Assembly: GCA_019636235.1 (NCBI GenBank)
Contig: JAHBXW010000008.1
Location: 124,001 to 188,000, forward strand
Direction: 5' to 3'
DNA length: 64,000 nucleotides
From: Planctomyces sp.
GTDB lineage: Bacteria; Planctomycetota; Planctomycetia; Planctomycetales; Planctomycetaceae
How positions within the stretch are numbered: position 1 is the stretch's first letter; each line of letters opens with the position of its first letter. Below the pieces are notes generated by a model. It did no database searches and had not been told where the DNA came from. It was given only the letters and a program-made list of their open reading frames with translations. The translations under genes were made by a program, and so were the position numbers. Positions 2 through 23,711 of this stretch are shown in pieces.

Positions 2-1267
2 ACCACCGGCATCGAGCCGGACATCGCGCTCATCAAGTACAAGCAGCTCGCCGGCGGCGGCATGTTGAAGATCATCAACCGCACCGTGCCGAAGTCGCTG
101 GCCACGCTGGGCTACGATCAGCCGACGATCGACGGCATCCTGGCCTACCTGGAGCAGGAGGAAACGGTCGAAGGCGCCCCGGGCCTCAAGCCTGAACACC
201 TCGCCGTGTTCGACTGCGCCTTTAAGGCCGCCAAGGGAACCCGCACGATCGCCTGGAAGGCGCACGTCACCATGATGGCCGCCGCCCAGCCGTTCCTGTC
301 CGGCGCCATCTCCAAGACGGTCAACATGCCGTCGGACAGCACCATCGACGACGTCAAGCAGGCCTACATCGAAGGCTGGAAGCTCGGCCTCAAGGCGCTG
401 GCGATTTACCGGGACGGCTCCAAGCAGAGCCAGCCTCTGGCGACCTCGAAAGAGGGGGACCGCAAAGGGAAGAAGGGCTCGGAAGAGCCGGTTCTCGCCG
501 CCCAGCCGATCCGCCGCCGGTTGCCCGAGACCCGCAACTCGGTCACGCACAAGTTCTCCGTGGGCGGACACGAAGGGTACATCACGGTCGGCCTGTTCGA
601 GGACGGGGCGCCCGGCGAACTGTTCATCACGATGGCCAAGGAAGGCTCGACGATCGGCGGCCTGATGGACGTCATCGGCACGCAGACTTCGATGGCCCTG
701 CAGTACGGCGTGCCGCTGTCCGACCTGGTCAACAAGTTCAGCCACGCCCGGTTCGAGCCCAGCGGCTGGACGCCGAACCCGGACATCCCGCACGCGAAAT
801 CGGTCGTGGACTACATCTTCCGGTGGCTGGGCATGCAGTTCGTGCCGGGCTTCCGGGAGAAAAACGCTCCCCGGCGGGAGGGGGAATACGGCGGGACGCC
901 TACGGCCGGCGATTCCGCGGGCCCTAAGGTTCCCTCTCCCCAGGATGGGGCGAGGGAGGCCGCGAAGGACTCGACGGGGCCTGTCAGCAGCGAATCGGCG
1001 ACTGCGGTCGCTCTCCCGGTGCTGGCCGTGGCGGCGCCAGCCGCGCTGAACGGAACGAACGGCGTCCATGCGAACGGTCACGCGTCGAACGGGACCCACG
1101 CGGGCGCCCGGGGCGGCTCGGCCCTCGATGGCCCGCAGGTCCGCAGCCAGCAGTTCGCCCTGTTCCAGTCGGACGCGCCGGCCTGCGACAACTGCGGGGC
1201 GATCACCGTCCGCAACGGCAACTGCTACCTGTGCCACAACTGTGGGCAGAGCATGGGCTGTTCGTGA
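2..1267 (+). CDS. nrdJ: Adenosylcobalamin-dependent (class II) ribonucleoside-diphosphate reductase, C-terminal part
   Basis: The reading frame is open from the first bases of the window, so the gene begins upstream and only about 420 C-terminal residues are seen. The start reads TTGIEPDIALIKYKQLAGGG, typical of B12-dependent reductases that convert NDPs to dNDPs without oxygen. The family's C-terminal hallmark is also present: a Cys-rich tail with CDNCG, CYLCHNCG and a terminal GCS. A metal or redox role for such tails is known for the family. Between the catalytic part and the tail lies a low-complexity linker of roughly 110 residues rich in Gly, Ala and Asn, longer than needed for the fold. 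An ATG at 62 is internal, not the start. A hairpin follows the stop at 1471-1501. Confidence 0.9.
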   Translation, partial: TTGIEPDIALIKYKQLAGGGMLKIINRTVPKSLATLGYDQPTIDGILAYLEQEETVEGAPGLKPEHLAVFDCAFKAAKGTRTIAWKAHVTMMAAAQPFLSGAISKTVNMPSDSTIDDVKQAYIEGWKLGLKALAIYRDGSKQSQPLATSKEGDRKGKKGSEEPVLAAQPIRRRLPETRNSVTHKFSVGGHEGYITVGLFEDGAPGELFITMAKEGSTIGGLMDVIGTQTSMALQYGVPLSDLVNKFSHARFEPSGWTPNPDIPHAKSVVDYIFRWLGMQFVPGFREKNAPRREGEYGGTPTAGDSAGPKVPSPQDGAREAAKDSTGPVSSESATAVALPVLAVAAPAALNGTNGVHANGHASNGTHAGARGGSALDGPQVRSQQFALFQSDAPACDNCGAITVRNGNCYLCHNCGQSMGCS

Positions 1268-1470
1268 CGAGCGTGATCAGGCGGCGAGCGGCTGGCGAAA
1301 TGCTGGCCGCCCGCCGGCTGCGAGACTCGGAACCGGCCGCGGCATGGATTTCGGAAGCGGCCCCGGGAGCGGCATTCGCCCCGGAAATCTGTGGCGTGAG
1401 ATTTTGATTGGATGAGGAAGTCGTCTGCCGGACGGCTGACGGAATAGCGCTAACGGCAGACTTGATCGCG

Positions 1471-1510
1471 CACCCCGGCGGAACGGATGACCGCTGGGGT
1501 GTCGTCGTTT
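1471..1510 (+). terminator. Probable terminator after nrdJ
   Basis: CACCCCGGCGG at 1471-1481 pairs with CCGCTGGGGTG at 1491-1501. This is an 11-bp stem with one G-T pair and a 9-nt loop, followed by a short TCGTCGTTT stretch. A weaker inverted repeat (GTCTGCCG 1423-1430, CGGCAGAC 1454-1461) lies just before it. The T-tract is poor, so termination is inferred. Confidence 0.5.
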
Positions 1511-1534
1511 GATCAGTTCCCACTCGCGCTGCAG

Positions 1535-1687
1535 TTTCGTAGGCCGGGTCTTGACCCGGCGAGCCGTTGCAAACCGATGTCCCGAATCCGCGGGAAAGGG
1601 AAATGATTAGGCTGCATCCGAGGCAACCCGCGCTGACGTGGACGCCCATTCCCAAAGAACTCGCTGGGCCAAGGCCCAGCCTGCGAA
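1535..1687. repeat. Hairpin-ended dispersed repeat, copy 1
   Basis: This is an element of about 150 bp with no ORF. Its two ends are 28-nt inverted repeats of each other, matching at 23 of 28 positions (1536-1563 and 1660-1687). Each end is itself a perfect 8-bp hairpin with a 2-nt loop: GCCGGGTC-TT-GACCCGGC at 1543-1560 and GCTGGGCC-AA-GGCCCAGC at 1663-1680. A second copy in opposite orientation lies at 21355-21510 and a half copy at 23662-23711. The form fits a REP doublet or a MITE. Confidence 0.8.
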
Positions 1688-1703
1688 TCGGCAGCATCGA
1701 GAA

Positions 1704-1737
1704 GGTGGGTCAGCGCAGGCTTGACCCACCCTACAGC
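1704..1737. repeat. REP-like hairpin of the GTAGGGTGGGTCA type
   Basis: GGTGGGTCA at 1704-1712 and TGACCCACC at 1722-1730 form a perfect 9-bp stem with a 9-nt loop. CTAC follows the right arm, so the minus strand reads GTAGGGTGGGTCA. This resembles REP sequences that RAYT transposases mobilise in other bacteria. No RAYT gene is in the window. The hairpin sits about 100 bases before the methyltransferase start. Confidence 0.65.
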
Positions 1738-1836
1738 TACTGATCGTGCCGGCGACCTGCGCGACGGGCCGCACGCTTGCCCCCCGCAGGTCACCCACCG
1801 AGAATCCCGGTCGTCAGGTTCCGCCCCGAGGCGCCG

Positions 1837-2655
1837 ATGACTGTGGACCAGCGACTCGCATCCGATCGGTTCCCCCGTGCCTCGGCCTATCATCCCGCCT
1901 GGGTGCTGGCCGGAGTCAGCGGCGGGGCCAATCCGCTGTGGCTGACTGAGTGGCTCTGCGAGGCGATCGACCTGCGGAGGGGCATGCGCGTTCTGGACCT
2001 CGGCTGCGGTCGGGCCCTGTCCTCGGTCTTCCTGCGGCGCGAGTTCGGCGTCGAGGTGTGGGCCGCCGATCTGTGGTGCAGCCCCACGGAGAACAGCGAA
2101 CGAATCCGGGACGCGGGCGTCGAGGAGGGCGTGTTCCCGATCCGCGCCGACGCCCGGTCGCTGCCGTTCGCCGAGGGGTTCTTCGACGCCATCCTGTCGA
2201 TCGACTCGTTCATGTATTACGGCACGGACGATTTGTACCTGAGCGACCTCGCCCGGTTCGTCAAACCGGGGGGGACGCTGGGCATCGCGCTCGCCGGAAT
2301 GGTGACCGAGGTCGACGGACCGGCGCCCGCGCACCTGGCCGAGTGGTGGGCAGGCGACATGGCGTACTGCCTGCACTCGGCGGAGTGGTGGCGGCGGCAT
2401 TGGGAGCGGACCGGCATCGTGGACATTTCGGTCGCTGACACGCTGGACGACGGCTGGCGGTTCTGGCGGGATTGGATCAAGGTCGTCGCGCCCGCGAACG
2501 AGCGGGAAATCCTGGCGCTGGAGACGGATGCGGGCCGGCATTTCGGCTATGTCCGCGTGGTGGGCCGCCGCCGCGCTGACGCGCAGCTGTTCGATCCGCA
2601 CCTGACGATCCCGGCGGAGTACACGAAACAGCCGTTGCTCCGCGGCTCGGAATAG
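1837..2655 (+). CDS. Class I SAM-dependent methyltransferase
   Basis: The protein has 272 residues and a Rossmann methyltransferase core. Motif I is VLDLGCGRA at about residues 55-63, an acidic residue ends the second strand (WAADLW), RADARSLPFAEGFFDAI is a motif II/III-like stretch, and VKPGGTLGIAL matches the post-I strand. The layout is like small-molecule or cyclopropane-synthase-like methyltransferases, and the substrate cannot be told. The ATG at 1837 is preferred over an in-frame TTG at 1777 because CGAGG lies just upstream and the extra 20 residues look non-coding. It stands alone between hairpin repeats, and another hairpin follows its stop at 2672. Confidence 0.8.
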   Translation: MTVDQRLASDRFPRASAYHPAWVLAGVSGGANPLWLTEWLCEAIDLRRGMRVLDLGCGRALSSVFLRREFGVEVWAADLWCSPTENSERIRDAGVEEGVFPIRADARSLPFAEGFFDAILSIDSFMYYGTDDLYLSDLARFVKPGGTLGIALAGMVTEVDGPAPAHLAEWWAGDMAYCLHSAEWWRRHWERTGIVDISVADTLDDGWRFWRDWIKVVAPANEREILALETDAGRHFGYVRVVGRRRADAQLFDPHLTIPAEYTKQPLLRGSE

Positions 2656-2671
2656 GCTGGCTGTTCCGCAG

Positions 2672-2686
2672 GCCGGGTGACCCGGC
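2672..2686. repeat. Short palindrome after the methyltransferase gene
   Basis: GCCGGGT at 2672-2678 and ACCCGGC at 2680-2686 form a 7-bp palindrome with one central base. The arm resembles the GCCGGGTC arms of the larger dispersed repeat. It may be a degenerate unit of that family or help end transcription; no T-tract follows. Confidence 0.5.
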
Positions 2687-2807
2687 GCCACGGCCGGCGC
2701 TCACGCTTCGAGCGTATGCGAACGCTCCTCGCCGCGGCCCCATTGCCGTTCTCGTCTCCGCCCGGTAGCGTCGAGGGCCTCTCTGCCGTTCCAACCTGGA
2801 GATCGCC

Positions 2808-3857
2808 ATGCCCCGTCGCTGGTCCGCTGTGCTGCTGGCCCTCGTCGTCTCGTTCGCCGCCCGGTCCGTGTCGGCGGGCGCGGAGGACGGACGGTTCGAC
2901 CTGTACTTCATCGACGTCGAGGGCGGGGCCGCGACGCTGCTCGTCACGCCGGACGGCGAATCGGTGCTGATCGACTCCGGCTACCCCGGCAACCAGGGGC
3001 GGGACCTGAACCGCATTCTGCATGTTGTGCGGGACGTCGCCAGGCTCAATCGCATCGACCACGCGGTCGTGTCGCACTGGCATCTTGATCATTACGGCAA
3101 CCATGCTGCGCTGGCCGGGCAAATTCCGATCGGCGCGTTCTGGGACCGGGGGATTCCCGACGCGCTCGAGGAGGACCGGCAGTTCCCGGACCGCATCGCC
3201 CAGTACCGCGCCGCTGCGCAGAACCAGTCCCGCACGCTCCGCGCCGGCGACAGCTTCCAGTTCGACTCCCAGCCGCCGCTGACGGTCAAAATCCTGACCG
3301 CCAGTCGCGAGGTCGTGCCCAATGTCGGCCCGCCCAACCCGCACGCGGAGAAGCATCAGCCCCAGCCGGAGGATCCCAGCGACAACGCCGCCTCGCTGAG
3401 CCTGCTGTTCGGCTTCGGCGATTTCCGGTTCCTGTGCTGCGGCGATCTGACCTGGAACGTGGAGGCGCAGCTGGTGACGCCGAACAATCCGGTGGGCCTG
3501 GTGGACCTGTTCATGGTCACGCACCACGGGTTGAACGTGAGCAACAACCCGGTGCTGGTGCACGCGATCGATCCGGTGGTGACGGTGATGTGCAACGGTC
3601 CGAAGAAGGGGGGCGCTCCGGAGACGCTGGCGACGCTGCGGGGCGTGGCGTCGCTGAAGGCGATGTACCAGTTGCACCGGAACGTGGATTTGCCGGAGGA
3701 CGCGCAGGCGCCGCCGTCGTACATTGCGAACAGCGATCCGACGGAGAACTGCAGCGGGCGGTGGGTGAAGGCTTCGGTGGCTCCGGACGGGAAGAGCTAC
3801 ACGGTGCAGATCGACGTGGACGGGCGGAAGGACGAGTACGCGACGCGGCCGCGGTGA
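2808..3857 (+). CDS. Secreted metallo-beta-lactamase-fold (ComEC/Rec2-like) hydrolase
   Basis: The protein has 349 residues with an N-terminal signal peptide (MPRRWSAVLLALVVSFAARS, cut near residue 23). The metal-binding motif SHWHLDHYGN at about residues 88-97 is the HxHxDH signature of the fold. Further ligands are probable at CCGDLTW and MVTHHGLN. The domain resembles the ComEC C-terminal beta-lactamase domain but lacks its membrane part, so it should act in the periplasm. The substrate is unknown; phosphodiester or nucleotide hydrolysis is a family-based guess. The gene is convergent with the dynamin-like gene that ends at 3946. Confidence 0.75.
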   Translation: MPRRWSAVLLALVVSFAARSVSAGAEDGRFDLYFIDVEGGAATLLVTPDGESVLIDSGYPGNQGRDLNRILHVVRDVARLNRIDHAVVSHWHLDHYGNHAALAGQIPIGAFWDRGIPDALEEDRQFPDRIAQYRAAAQNQSRTLRAGDSFQFDSQPPLTVKILTASREVVPNVGPPNPHAEKHQPQPEDPSDNAASLSLLFGFGDFRFLCCGDLTWNVEAQLVTPNNPVGLVDLFMVTHHGLNVSNNPVLVHAIDPVVTVMCNGPKKGGAPETLATLRGVASLKAMYQLHRNVDLPEDAQAPPSYIANSDPTENCSGRWVKASVAPDGKSYTVQIDVDGRKDEYATRPR

Positions 3858-3945
3858 GCGGGGGCGCCCCGCGGTCAGCGCGGCTTGAGCATCTTCAGAA
3901 TCTTCGGATCGTACGGCCCGACCCGCTGGCCGCCATTCTGCCCCC

Positions 3946-5820
3946 TCACCCCGGCATGCGCTGCAACCGCTCCAGCGCCTGTTGCACACGTCGATATTCT
4001 TCGCTCGTCGTCGTCGACGCCGCCTGCTGCAGGTCGCCCGGCATCGACCCCAGCAGCGTACGCTGGAGCTGGCCGGCCAGCCAGGCTGCCCGCTGGGCCG
4101 CGTAGCGCGTCTGCAGGCCGCGAAACCGCGCCTCGAAGTACCCGACGCTCGTCCCCGCCCCCGAACTCAGCACCGTCTCACCCACCGCGCCCGCCACCGT
4201 TCCCCCCACGACATCCCCCGCGATGTGCACCACCCCCTGCATGGCCGCATCCGCGAAGATTGGCGTGACCGCGTGACCCACCGGGCCGAATCCCACCACG
4301 AACAACGCCACGCTCGTCACCGGACGCGCCGCCGCCGCCGCCATGTCGACCTTCCGAAACAGCTCGTACGCGTTCGGACTGTCCGACCGGAACGTCTTCA
4401 GCTCATCGTCGACCAGCAGCCGCAGCTCCTCCTCGAAGCGCACGTCCCGGTGCACGCGCTTCAACTCGTCCAGCACCTGCGTCCGGGAGGTGCCGTTCAG
4501 GATCTCCTGCAGCCGCGGCTGAAGCAGTTCGTTGCCGAGTTCCGCCAGCATCGTCAGCCGGTCGTACACCGCCGAGACGGCGCTCAGGATGCCGCTCCAC
4601 TCCCGCTCGCGGTAGGCGTCGAACAAGGGGCGCGGTTCTCCCTTCACAAGCACCTTCAGCTTCTGAAACGGCCATGAGATCCCAGCGCCCACCGCGTTGT
4701 AGAAGCCATGGACCTGACGCGACCAGCCTTCCCGCTGATCGCGCCACCAGCGGCGCAGCTCGCTGACGACCGCCGCGGCAGGCGCCGTGGGCCAGTCTTT
4801 CACTTCGGCGAGTTTGCCGGCGGACAGCTGTTCGCTCGCGGCCCGAAATTCCTGGACCCGGGCGCGGACCTCCCGCAGATAGGCCGGCGCACCGCTGGCG
4901 GGGTCGAGCGTCTGCCGCAGGCTGCCGCGCAGCGACCGCCACTTGATCTCCTGGAATCGCAGCCGCGACAGGTCGCTGAGCAGGCTGCGGGACTCGACGC
5001 GCGGCGACTTGGGATCGTCCGTCTTCGCGGGCTTTTCAGGGGGCCAGGCGCGCTCGAAGAACGGCAGCTCGATGGCCTCGGCCGCGCGGCGATCCGCCGG
5101 CGCGACGTAGACGATCTGCGGCTCGATTCCCGTCTCCCGGCAGAACGTCTCCAGCCACAGCGGCCAGTACGGCTCGTCCTCCGGCAGCAGCACCTGGTTC
5201 AGGATCACGACCACGGCCTTTTCCTCGGCCGCCGCCTTGCGGAAGAACTCTTTCACGGCCGCATCGTTGTACTTCTGTTGCGTCAGCACGGCGATCAGCA
5301 GGTCGGCCGCCTGCCGGACATGGTCGGCCCGCTCCCAGTTGATCCGCGCATCGCTGTCGATATCGGGCGTGTCGAGCAGCAGCAGGTTGGCGGGCATCTC
5401 GGGCGACTCGCGCCAGAACAACCGGTGCTGGGCCTCGTCGGACAAAGCTCCGTCGGCGCCGGTCCAGGGAGTGACGGTGAAGCCCGTGAACAGAGCGCCC
5501 ACATCGTGCCGGCGCGAGAACCCGGTCGGCGCGAGGCAGGTGGGATGCCGCGTCCCGGAGGCCAGCGGCGACGTCGCGCTGGCCCGGAAGCCGGCGGCAT
5601 GATTGAAGACGACGCTCTTGCCGATGTTCGTGCCGCCGACCACCGCGGCGATCAGGAAGCTGTCTTCGCCCAGTTGCGGGCGAAGCTTGCGCATCAGGAG
5701 CTCGTACCATTCGCGTCCGGCGAGCGGCGGAAGCTGCAGCCGCTGGGCGACAGGTTCGAAAACTTCGAGCGCGGCGCACAGGTCGTGGACGGCTGCGGGA
5801 GTGGCGCCTGGATCCGGCAT
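3946..5820 (-). CDS. Dynamin-like GTPase
   Basis: The protein has 624 residues and a large GTPase domain. The P-loop is GGTNIGKS at about residues 62-69, the G2 Thr is in RHPT near 94, the G3 motif is DTPDIDSD at 150-157, and the G4-like motif is ILNQ. The P-loop and length fit bacterial dynamin-like or YfjP/EngA-type membrane-associated GTPases. The middle is helical. Near the C-terminus a Gly/Ala/Val-rich segment (SVALFVVGFGPVGHAVTPI and onward) looks able to insert in membrane. The ATG at 5820 is chosen because the upstream open frame is Arg/Pro-rich non-coding-like sequence. The role is unknown; membrane remodelling or stress defence are family-based possibilities. It is divergent from the small membrane protein at 6072. 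Confidence 0.75.
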   Translation of the reverse strand: MPDPGATPAAVHDLCAALEVFEPVAQRLQLPPLAGREWYELLMRKLRPQLGEDSFLIAAVVGGTNIGKSVVFNHAAGFRASATSPLASGTRHPTCLAPTGFSRRHDVGALFTGFTVTPWTGADGALSDEAQHRLFWRESPEMPANLLLLDTPDIDSDARINWERADHVRQAADLLIAVLTQQKYNDAAVKEFFRKAAAEEKAVVVILNQVLLPEDEPYWPLWLETFCRETGIEPQIVYVAPADRRAAEAIELPFFERAWPPEKPAKTDDPKSPRVESRSLLSDLSRLRFQEIKWRSLRGSLRQTLDPASGAPAYLREVRARVQEFRAASEQLSAGKLAEVKDWPTAPAAAVVSELRRWWRDQREGWSRQVHGFYNAVGAGISWPFQKLKVLVKGEPRPLFDAYREREWSGILSAVSAVYDRLTMLAELGNELLQPRLQEILNGTSRTQVLDELKRVHRDVRFEEELRLLVDDELKTFRSDSPNAYELFRKVDMAAAAARPVTSVALFVVGFGPVGHAVTPIFADAAMQGVVHIAGDVVGGTVAGAVGETVLSSGAGTSVGYFEARFRGLQTRYAAQRAAWLAGQLQRTLLGSMPGDLQQAASTTTSEEYRRVQQALERLQRMPG

Positions 5821-21354: not shown

Positions 21355-21510
21355 TTTCGTTGGCCGGGCCTTGGCCCAGCGAGTGCTTTGGGAATGGGCG
21401 ACAGGTCAGCTTCTGTCGCCCAAGACGCGGAATTCTGATGCCCTGCCTGTGTTGGTTTCTCTGTGTGGGACGTCGGTCCGCAACGGCTCGCCAGGGCAAG
21501 TCTTCAACAC
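21355..21510. repeat. Hairpin-ended dispersed repeat, copy 2 (inverted relative to copy 1)
   Basis: It starts TTTCGTTGGCCGGGCC with an arm pair at 21363-21370 and 21373-21380, and ends near CAACGGCTCGCCAGGGCAAG. The segment GGCCTTGGCCCAGCGAGTGC and the following CTTTGGGAATGGGCG match the reverse complement of copy 1 almost base for base. The right part matches again (GGGACnTCGGT, GCAACGGCTCGCC). The middle has diverged and the right hairpin is degraded. The length of about 155 bp equals copy 1. The rest of the gap 21268-21742 shows nothing further. Confidence 0.75.
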
Positions 21511-23661: not shown

Positions 23662-23711
23662 GGGACAACCGTCCGCATCGGCGCGCCGGGTCAAGGCCCG
23701 GCCTTCAAAAC
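23662..23711. repeat. Half copy of the hairpin-ended dispersed repeat
   Basis: This segment matches the inner and right end of copies 1 and 2: GGGACaaCcGTCCGCA, then GCCGGGTC-AA-GGCCCGGC at 23685-23702 and a CAAAAC end. 32 of 37 positions match copy 1 from GCA to AAAC. No left hairpin is seen in the preceding 80 bases, so this is a solo or truncated unit between convergent genes. Confidence 0.65.

Follow-up and report, generated by a model that had tools for sequence, protein, structure and literature searches.

The window, the 64,000-nt stretch of DNA analysed here (G000:C44:124001-188000), comes from a 5.6-Mb genome assembled in 45 contigs. It carries a short element with inverted ends, which has the end of a B12-dependent ribonucleotide reductase gene on one side and a methyltransferase gene on the other. 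The ends are identical at 23 of 28 positions (1536-1563 against the reverse complement of 1660-1687). Among 387 random pieces of 200 nt taken from the window, no 28-nt inverted match with an outer length of 140-166 exceeded 20 of 28. An earlier note on this DNA had described the same match with a start one base off. When the register is begun at 1535 the match drops to 10 of 28, and the element is therefore 1536-1687, 152 bp long (Table 1).

The five differences between the ends lie at positions 5, 10, 14, 19 and 23, and the last four make up the two base pairs 10/23 and 14/19, as the note had it. The note's description of an 8-bp hairpin at each end also holds, each end having a perfect 8-bp stem with a TT loop. 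Perfect 8-bp hairpins with a 2-nt loop occur three times in the whole 64-kb window, and the ends of the element are two of these. Specifically, the L unit consists of a GTAG tag, the stem GCCGGGTC/GACCCGGC with its TT loop, GAG and some 20 nt of conserved tail, and the R unit consists of a GCAG tag, the stem GCTGGGCC/GGCCCAGC with its TT loop, GAG and the conserved tail TTCTTTGGGAATGGGCG. Both unit types are about 48 nt long; in each, a tag (GTAG or GCAG) precedes an 8-bp stem with a TT loop, and a GCGAG tail follows. The two are arranged head to head. The hairpin is common to L and R; the tails differ (L, GCCGTYGCRAACC..TCCC; R, TKCTTTGGGAATGGGCGA).

Table 1. Coordinates of repeat units, doublets and RAYT genes (window positions unless a contig or locus is given)
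Feature	Position	Strand	Basis or detail
REP head-to-head heterodimer, 152 bp	1536..1687	.	BLAST, covariance model, arm comparison
L-type REP unit	1536..1583	+	GTAG tag 1539-1542; stem and loop 1543-1560
R-type REP unit	1643..1687	-	GCAG tag 1684-1681; stem and loop 1680-1663
Second-family REP unit, single	1704..1734	-	GTAGGGTGGGTC-loop-GACCCACC; same family flanks C4 RAYT
Degenerate second doublet	21355..21510	.	R unit +, L unit -
Single L-type unit	23662..23711	-	GAAG tag, one stem mismatch
Doublet	C44:125536-125687		Window element
Doublet	C43:42428-42574
Doublet	C2:80164-80308
Degenerate doublet	C44:145356-145510		Window 21355-21510
Degenerate doublet	C24:2080-2224
C4 RAYT gene, intact	C4:57773-58309		HUH and tyrosine motifs
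L250 RAYT gene	L250, 1546-2085		Hairpins 1499+, 2126-, 2186-

Folded as single-stranded DNA, the two ends are predicted to reach -8.7 and -8.3 kcal/mol, with folds drawn as 7 pairs and a 4-nt loop, not 8 pairs and a TT loop; among 200 shuffles, folds as stable arise 6 and 3 times, respectively. The whole 152-nt strand favours a single long imperfect hairpin in which arm pairs with arm (-33.1 kcal/mol, z -2.29; an energy this low in 6 of 200 shuffles). The element thus has the make-up of a REPIN, namely two inverted REPs and a spacer, foldable into one hairpin.

Copies in the window and across the genome

The window holds two further copies reported by the earlier note. The second doublet exists, but just its R arm is well kept. 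This R unit lies on the plus strand from 21356, with a GTTG tag and one stem mismatch (C.A), and folds no better than shuffles (66 of 200 as low). Its L partner (minus strand, about 21462-21510) has lost the hairpin and shows no fold of the L/R kind. The half copy at 23662-23711 is an L unit.

The note had also called for a search of the whole genome, which yields more than the three copies of the window. BLAST with the element gives 20 matching stretches, self included. A tagged-hairpin pattern with up to two mismatches matches 17 places, compared with 0 for the backward control. A shorter untagged pattern matches 115 places and its control 136, so that only its zero- and one-mismatch rows count. 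A covariance model built from 21 ends has 26 matches at E<0.01; the stricter limit of E<1e-5 leaves 22 and the looser one of E<0.5 admits 28. The 21 ends match by construction, and the best 22 comprise 11 L units, 10 R units and one R-like unit. These first-family ends occur both as single units and as doublets, the latter at five places, two of them badly decayed. The spacers differ between doublets and agree only partially. At C2:80030-80305, a first-family doublet lies beside its own truncated duplicate, giving three ends in 200 bp.

The units resemble GTAG REP repeats in their GC-rich short-loop hairpins and, in degenerate form, in their tags. In the window element L carries GTAG and R carries GCAG; among the 21 ends the tag is GTAG in eight, GCAG in seven and another one-base variant in six. 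The copies are dispersed and mostly intergenic, though 26 ends at E<0.01 are few for a REP family. In a codon test, 23 copies were scored at their centre windows, and 21 of them come out no higher than 0.05 (one of these being exactly 0.05 after rounding), that is, within the bottom 5% of a comparison set made of coding windows alone. The exceptions are the C24 doublet and the unit at C41:221454. The test was trained on 23 ORFs, one of which (1513-2691, minus strand) overlaps the element and is probably spurious.

Other repeats lie near some first-family units. The 23-bp palindrome GCCGAGGGGNTNANCCCCTCGGC has 23 sites in the genome at up to one mismatch, compared with 0 for the control, and those at C13:34402-34424, C34:6228-6250, C43:42216-42238 and C27:25036-25058 are less than 250 bp from a first-family unit. 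Three loci (L275, L276 and L277, at G000:C2:176300-177096, C8:59400-60500 and C34:72100-72700) are clusters of units of about 220-250 bp that combine a bulged REP-like hairpin (such as GTAGGGTGTGGTCGAGGCACGAGACCCACC) with TTTGCAA-rich repeats; the L275 and L276 clusters also contain the palindrome.

The scatter of single and paired first-family copies, many of them broken, argues against a host role for the hairpins as conserved RNA or DNA structures, whether at the 3' end of the reductase mRNA, as a terminator or as a protein-binding site. The element does lie downstream of the reductase stop codon, and one terminator-like site coincides with the R hairpin on the minus strand. However, the chance expectation of the terminator scan is 0.4 and the match is antisense to the reductase gene. 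A known RNA family was also considered and set aside, as window 1200-2000 matches no Rfam family at E up to 1. We regard a host role as very improbable.

Conservation of the hairpin stems

In the alignment of 21 ends, standard pairs fill 158 of the 168 pair cells; 14 stems are perfect and the other 7 have one or more broken pairs. At pair 10/23, 11 ends have C:G, 8 have T:A and 2 are unpaired; at pair 14/19, 17 have C:G, 3 have T:A and 1 is unpaired. No G-T intermediate occurs at either pair in the 21 ends. None of 500 shuffles equals the alignment in covariation score, paired cells or double-change cells, although all 500 reach its count of further pair types and 220 reach its count of double-change pairs.

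The two pairs covary, as the earlier note had proposed from the paired differences between the arms. However, its conclusion that the stem itself is kept goes too far. The double changes track unit type, R units carrying T:A at 10/23 and L units carrying it at 14/19, so that they largely separate L from R and the rows of the alignment are not independent. Decayed ends were also removed before counting, which biases the result towards pairing. Specifically, C27, C34:90523 and C24:2222 (3, 2 and 3 of 8 pairs broken), the doubtful row C23:371779, C41:7626 (one base deleted) and the L arm at window 21510 were left out. With 7 of 21 stems broken, further broken stems among the omitted ends and one hairpin lost from the second window copy, the argument that compensation proves selection on the stem overreaches and was rejected. 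Preservation of REP palindromes through complementary changes is itself already published, as the part of Nunvar et al. 2010 drawn on here describes (PMC2817692).

A second, fresher family beside the element

A unit of a second GTAG family stands 16 nt from the element. Units of this family consist of GTAGGGTGGGTC, a loop of 9 or 11 nt and GACCCACC, and form heterodimers with unlike loops. The genome contains 22 exact units, for example at G000:C4:57544-58592, together with an intact RAYT gene, and at G000:C1:751-828. A model search returns 99 matches at E<0.5, with a long weak tail and other repeats mixed in.

The second family is markedly more uniform than the first. Six of its doublets share 77 or all 78 of their 78 positions, but they were selected by an exact-stem pattern, which makes the comparison lean to fresh copies. 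Five of these are identical over 78 bp at different places, and the flanks diverge past about six bases. Among the five first-family doublets, the best of the ten pairs agrees at 119 of 156 columns, and no two of the 21 first-family ends are identical over 31 nt. The two families meet at other places as well. At C23, a block made up of the greater part of the R hairpin, the spacer and the second-family unit recurs (69 of 73 identical), and at C42 an R end neighbours a fresh second-family doublet.

RAYT genes and their flanking hairpins

A family search of 170 genomes with the RAYT of G047, a genome of the same family, finds matches in 138. Flanks were scored at RAYT loci alone, for a GTAG-tagged hairpin with a stem of at least 7 bp within 500 nt of the match. 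Among the 30 RAYT loci listed, 10 have such a hairpin on both sides, 5 on one side only and 15 on neither, several of the 15 lying near contig ends; in 9 of the 10, the hairpins on the two sides are in facing order. The intact RAYT gene L250 of another planctomycete (the genome behind L162, MAG CSMAG_1807) has GTAGGCCGGGTCTTGACCCGGC on both sides, an exact match to 22 nt of the window L end, and the G047 RAYT is flanked by GTAGGCTGGGTC-NN-GACCCAGC, a close variant of the L hairpin. None of the RAYT loci examined is flanked by an R hairpin. Besides these, L251 and L253 (the genome behind L168, MAG Zod_Metabat.10) are RAYTs with GTAG-tagged GTCAGGC hairpins, partly in direct order.

The only intact RAYT found in the window's own assembly is the C4 gene, which is flanked by the second family. 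It was recovered by protein search; a Pfam Y1_Tnp scan of the genome missed it (19.5 bits, cut-off 23) and reported a C2 gene only. It scores 177.5 bits against the NCBIfam model for REP-associated tyrosine transposases (REP_Tyr_transpos); the three RAYTs tested reach 177.5, 177.6 and 195.7 bits, with a cut-off of 80. It is 52% identical to the L250 RAYT over 164 aa and is a sequence relative of the solved TnpArep 4er8. The GTAG hairpins seen within 500 nt of it all belong to the second family.

The C2 gene, a Y1 transposase at C2:99660, was first considered as the cognate because the three-end cluster sits 19 kb off. It was rejected, its flanks lacking a GTAG hairpin and its sequence grouping with a gene of G005 far outside the RAYT branch. 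This divergent type is represented by L053 1873-2358 (-), G000:C2:99660-99842, and the G005 gene L126. Two GTGG-tagged hairpins in direct order flank L126; by eye, the C2 copy is flanked by a degenerate repeat only.

The earlier note had suggested a transposase elsewhere in the genome as the mover of the element, and a transposase gene with the same ends as a check. Such genes occur in other planctomycetes (L250 with the exact L hairpin, G047 with the close variant), but none was found in the own assembly, where the C4 RAYT carries other REPs and the C2 gene no GTAG hairpin. The assembly being in 45 contigs, a cognate RAYT might lie in a gap.

It is unlikely, though conceivable, that the resident C4 RAYT still mobilises the doublet in trans. 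In favour of this, no other intact RAYT was found in the assembly, the second-family unit lies 16 nt from the element with the joint recurrence at C23, and the two families adjoin at C42. However, the hairpins around the gene all belong to the second family, the loops are unlike (2 nt vs 9 or 11 nt), and the first-family doublets are far more diverged. Somewhat more doubtful is the idea that the C4 RAYT serves two unlike families, the long-loop GGTGGGTC and the short-loop L/R, which it would move or co-move. If so, composites of R and second-family units would spread jointly (window 1643-1734, C23).

A tree of RAYTs (40 rows, two duplicates dropped) has good support at 10 of 37 inner branches. 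A four-gene branch with GCTGGG[T/A]C hairpins has support of 99/96 and includes the broken, long-branched L198; L250 groups with L248 at 89/90. The G047 and L250 RAYTs fall in separate branches, so different RAYT lines either have used the same short hairpin or have had it arise next to them, and the identity of the hairpin does not tell which RAYT served the L/R family. Recurrence of so short a hairpin could reflect convergence.

Occurrence in other genomes

When the pattern was searched across the family, 20 genomes other than the own one had matches and the control matched in 16 genomes, so single matches are not evidence. The standouts are G047 (39), G044 (5) and G162 (5). The same-genus genome G005 has one pattern match and one control match, which does not support presence of the L/R family. 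The 5.5 kb compared around the G005 reductase gene contain nothing that matches window 1261-4200, similarity ending with the reductase gene; there is thus no empty site by which an insertion event would be demonstrated.

In the GTDB r220 collection, from which records of the own genome were possibly left out, the tagged hairpin GTAGGCYGGGYCNNGRCCCRGCGAG has 15 exact stretches, all in records titled Planctomycetota, Pirellulales or Planctomyces. The pattern accepted C:G, T:A, C.A or T.G equally at both variable pairs, and 14 of the 15 are paired at 10/23 and all 15 at 14/19.

Discussion

Our results indicate, with a probability of about 0.85, that the element is a REPIN-like, GTAG-type heterodimer of L and R units placed head to head, whose RAYT is gone from the assembly and whose family is decaying. 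The earlier note had offered a REP doublet or a MITE. Tagged hairpins and the coexistence of single and paired copies favour the former. A MITE belonging to a DDE-type insertion sequence and ending in plain terminal inverted repeats would fit the size, the inverted ends and the absence of evident coding capacity. However, both ends of the element are tagged hairpins in their own right, many copies consist of one end only, and like hairpins flank RAYT genes; a MITE is the least probable reading of all.

By analogy with other REP/RAYT pairs, in part as generally understood, a RAYT, an HUH enzyme with a catalytic tyrosine, would bind the folded single strand and cut adjacent to the tagged hairpin, and the doublet would then be copied to a new site. 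The RAYT that spread the L/R family appears to be absent from the assembly, from which we infer that the family is decaying, its copies gathering point mutations and losing one of their ends, whereas the second family with its resident RAYT is still fresh. The L/R family is thus probably orphaned.

REPs, heterodimers, stem-preserving changes and planctomycete GTAG repeats are all already in print. As a sequence feature the element is ordinary, and only the neighbouring decayed and fresh families are mildly unusual. One planctomycete genome thus holds two REP families next to each other, one decayed and lacking a matching transposase, the other fresh and provided with one. Such a genome is a natural setting for timing REP decay after RAYT loss, and also suits tests of how strict a RAYT is in its choice of hairpin. 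R. baltica is a planctomycete as well.

The closest published parallel lies in the GTAG REP repeats, described in the portion of Di Nocera et al. 2013 used here (PMC3733652) as having a GTAG/GYAG tag, stems of mostly 6-9 bp and loops that are often TY. Their dimers are mostly 20-100 bp apart with GTAG outside, the partners carrying alternative complementary stem residues, and R. baltica is named as host of several families. The L/R units are like these in tag, stem length, loop and head-to-head heterodimers, and unlike them in a conserved part of about 48 nt rather than 20-40 and in low copy number.

The REPINs of P. fluorescens, in the sections of Bertels and Rainey 2011 compared here (PMC3116915), are inverted REP pairs with a variable spacer that can form one long hairpin; singlets are seen as remnants, and compensatory changes across the long hairpin are noted. 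The window element shares the inverted REP pair with a spacer, foldable into one long hairpin. Unlike those REPINs, its family numbers tens rather than hundreds of units, is decayed and has no cognate RAYT that was found in the assembly. The RAYT/REP units of Nunvar et al. 2010, as excerpted here (PMC2817692), place a RAYT gene between two inverted REPs; in our case, RAYTs with the L-type hairpin were found in other genomes only.

TnpAREP/REP group 3 of S. maltophilia, to judge from extracts of Corneloup et al. 2021 (PMC8266576), combines an 8-bp perfect stem, a tiny loop and a GTAG tag. The window element has the same features, with a TT loop, unlike the 3-nt loop and its important G in group 3. 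In the same extracts, the S. maltophilia RAYT cuts single-stranded REP in vitro, a GCAG tag being barely cut and a GTTG tag uncut. If this rule held across such distant RAYTs, the GCAG-tagged R end of the window element would serve poorly as a substrate or not at all, and so would the GTTG-tagged R end of the second copy.
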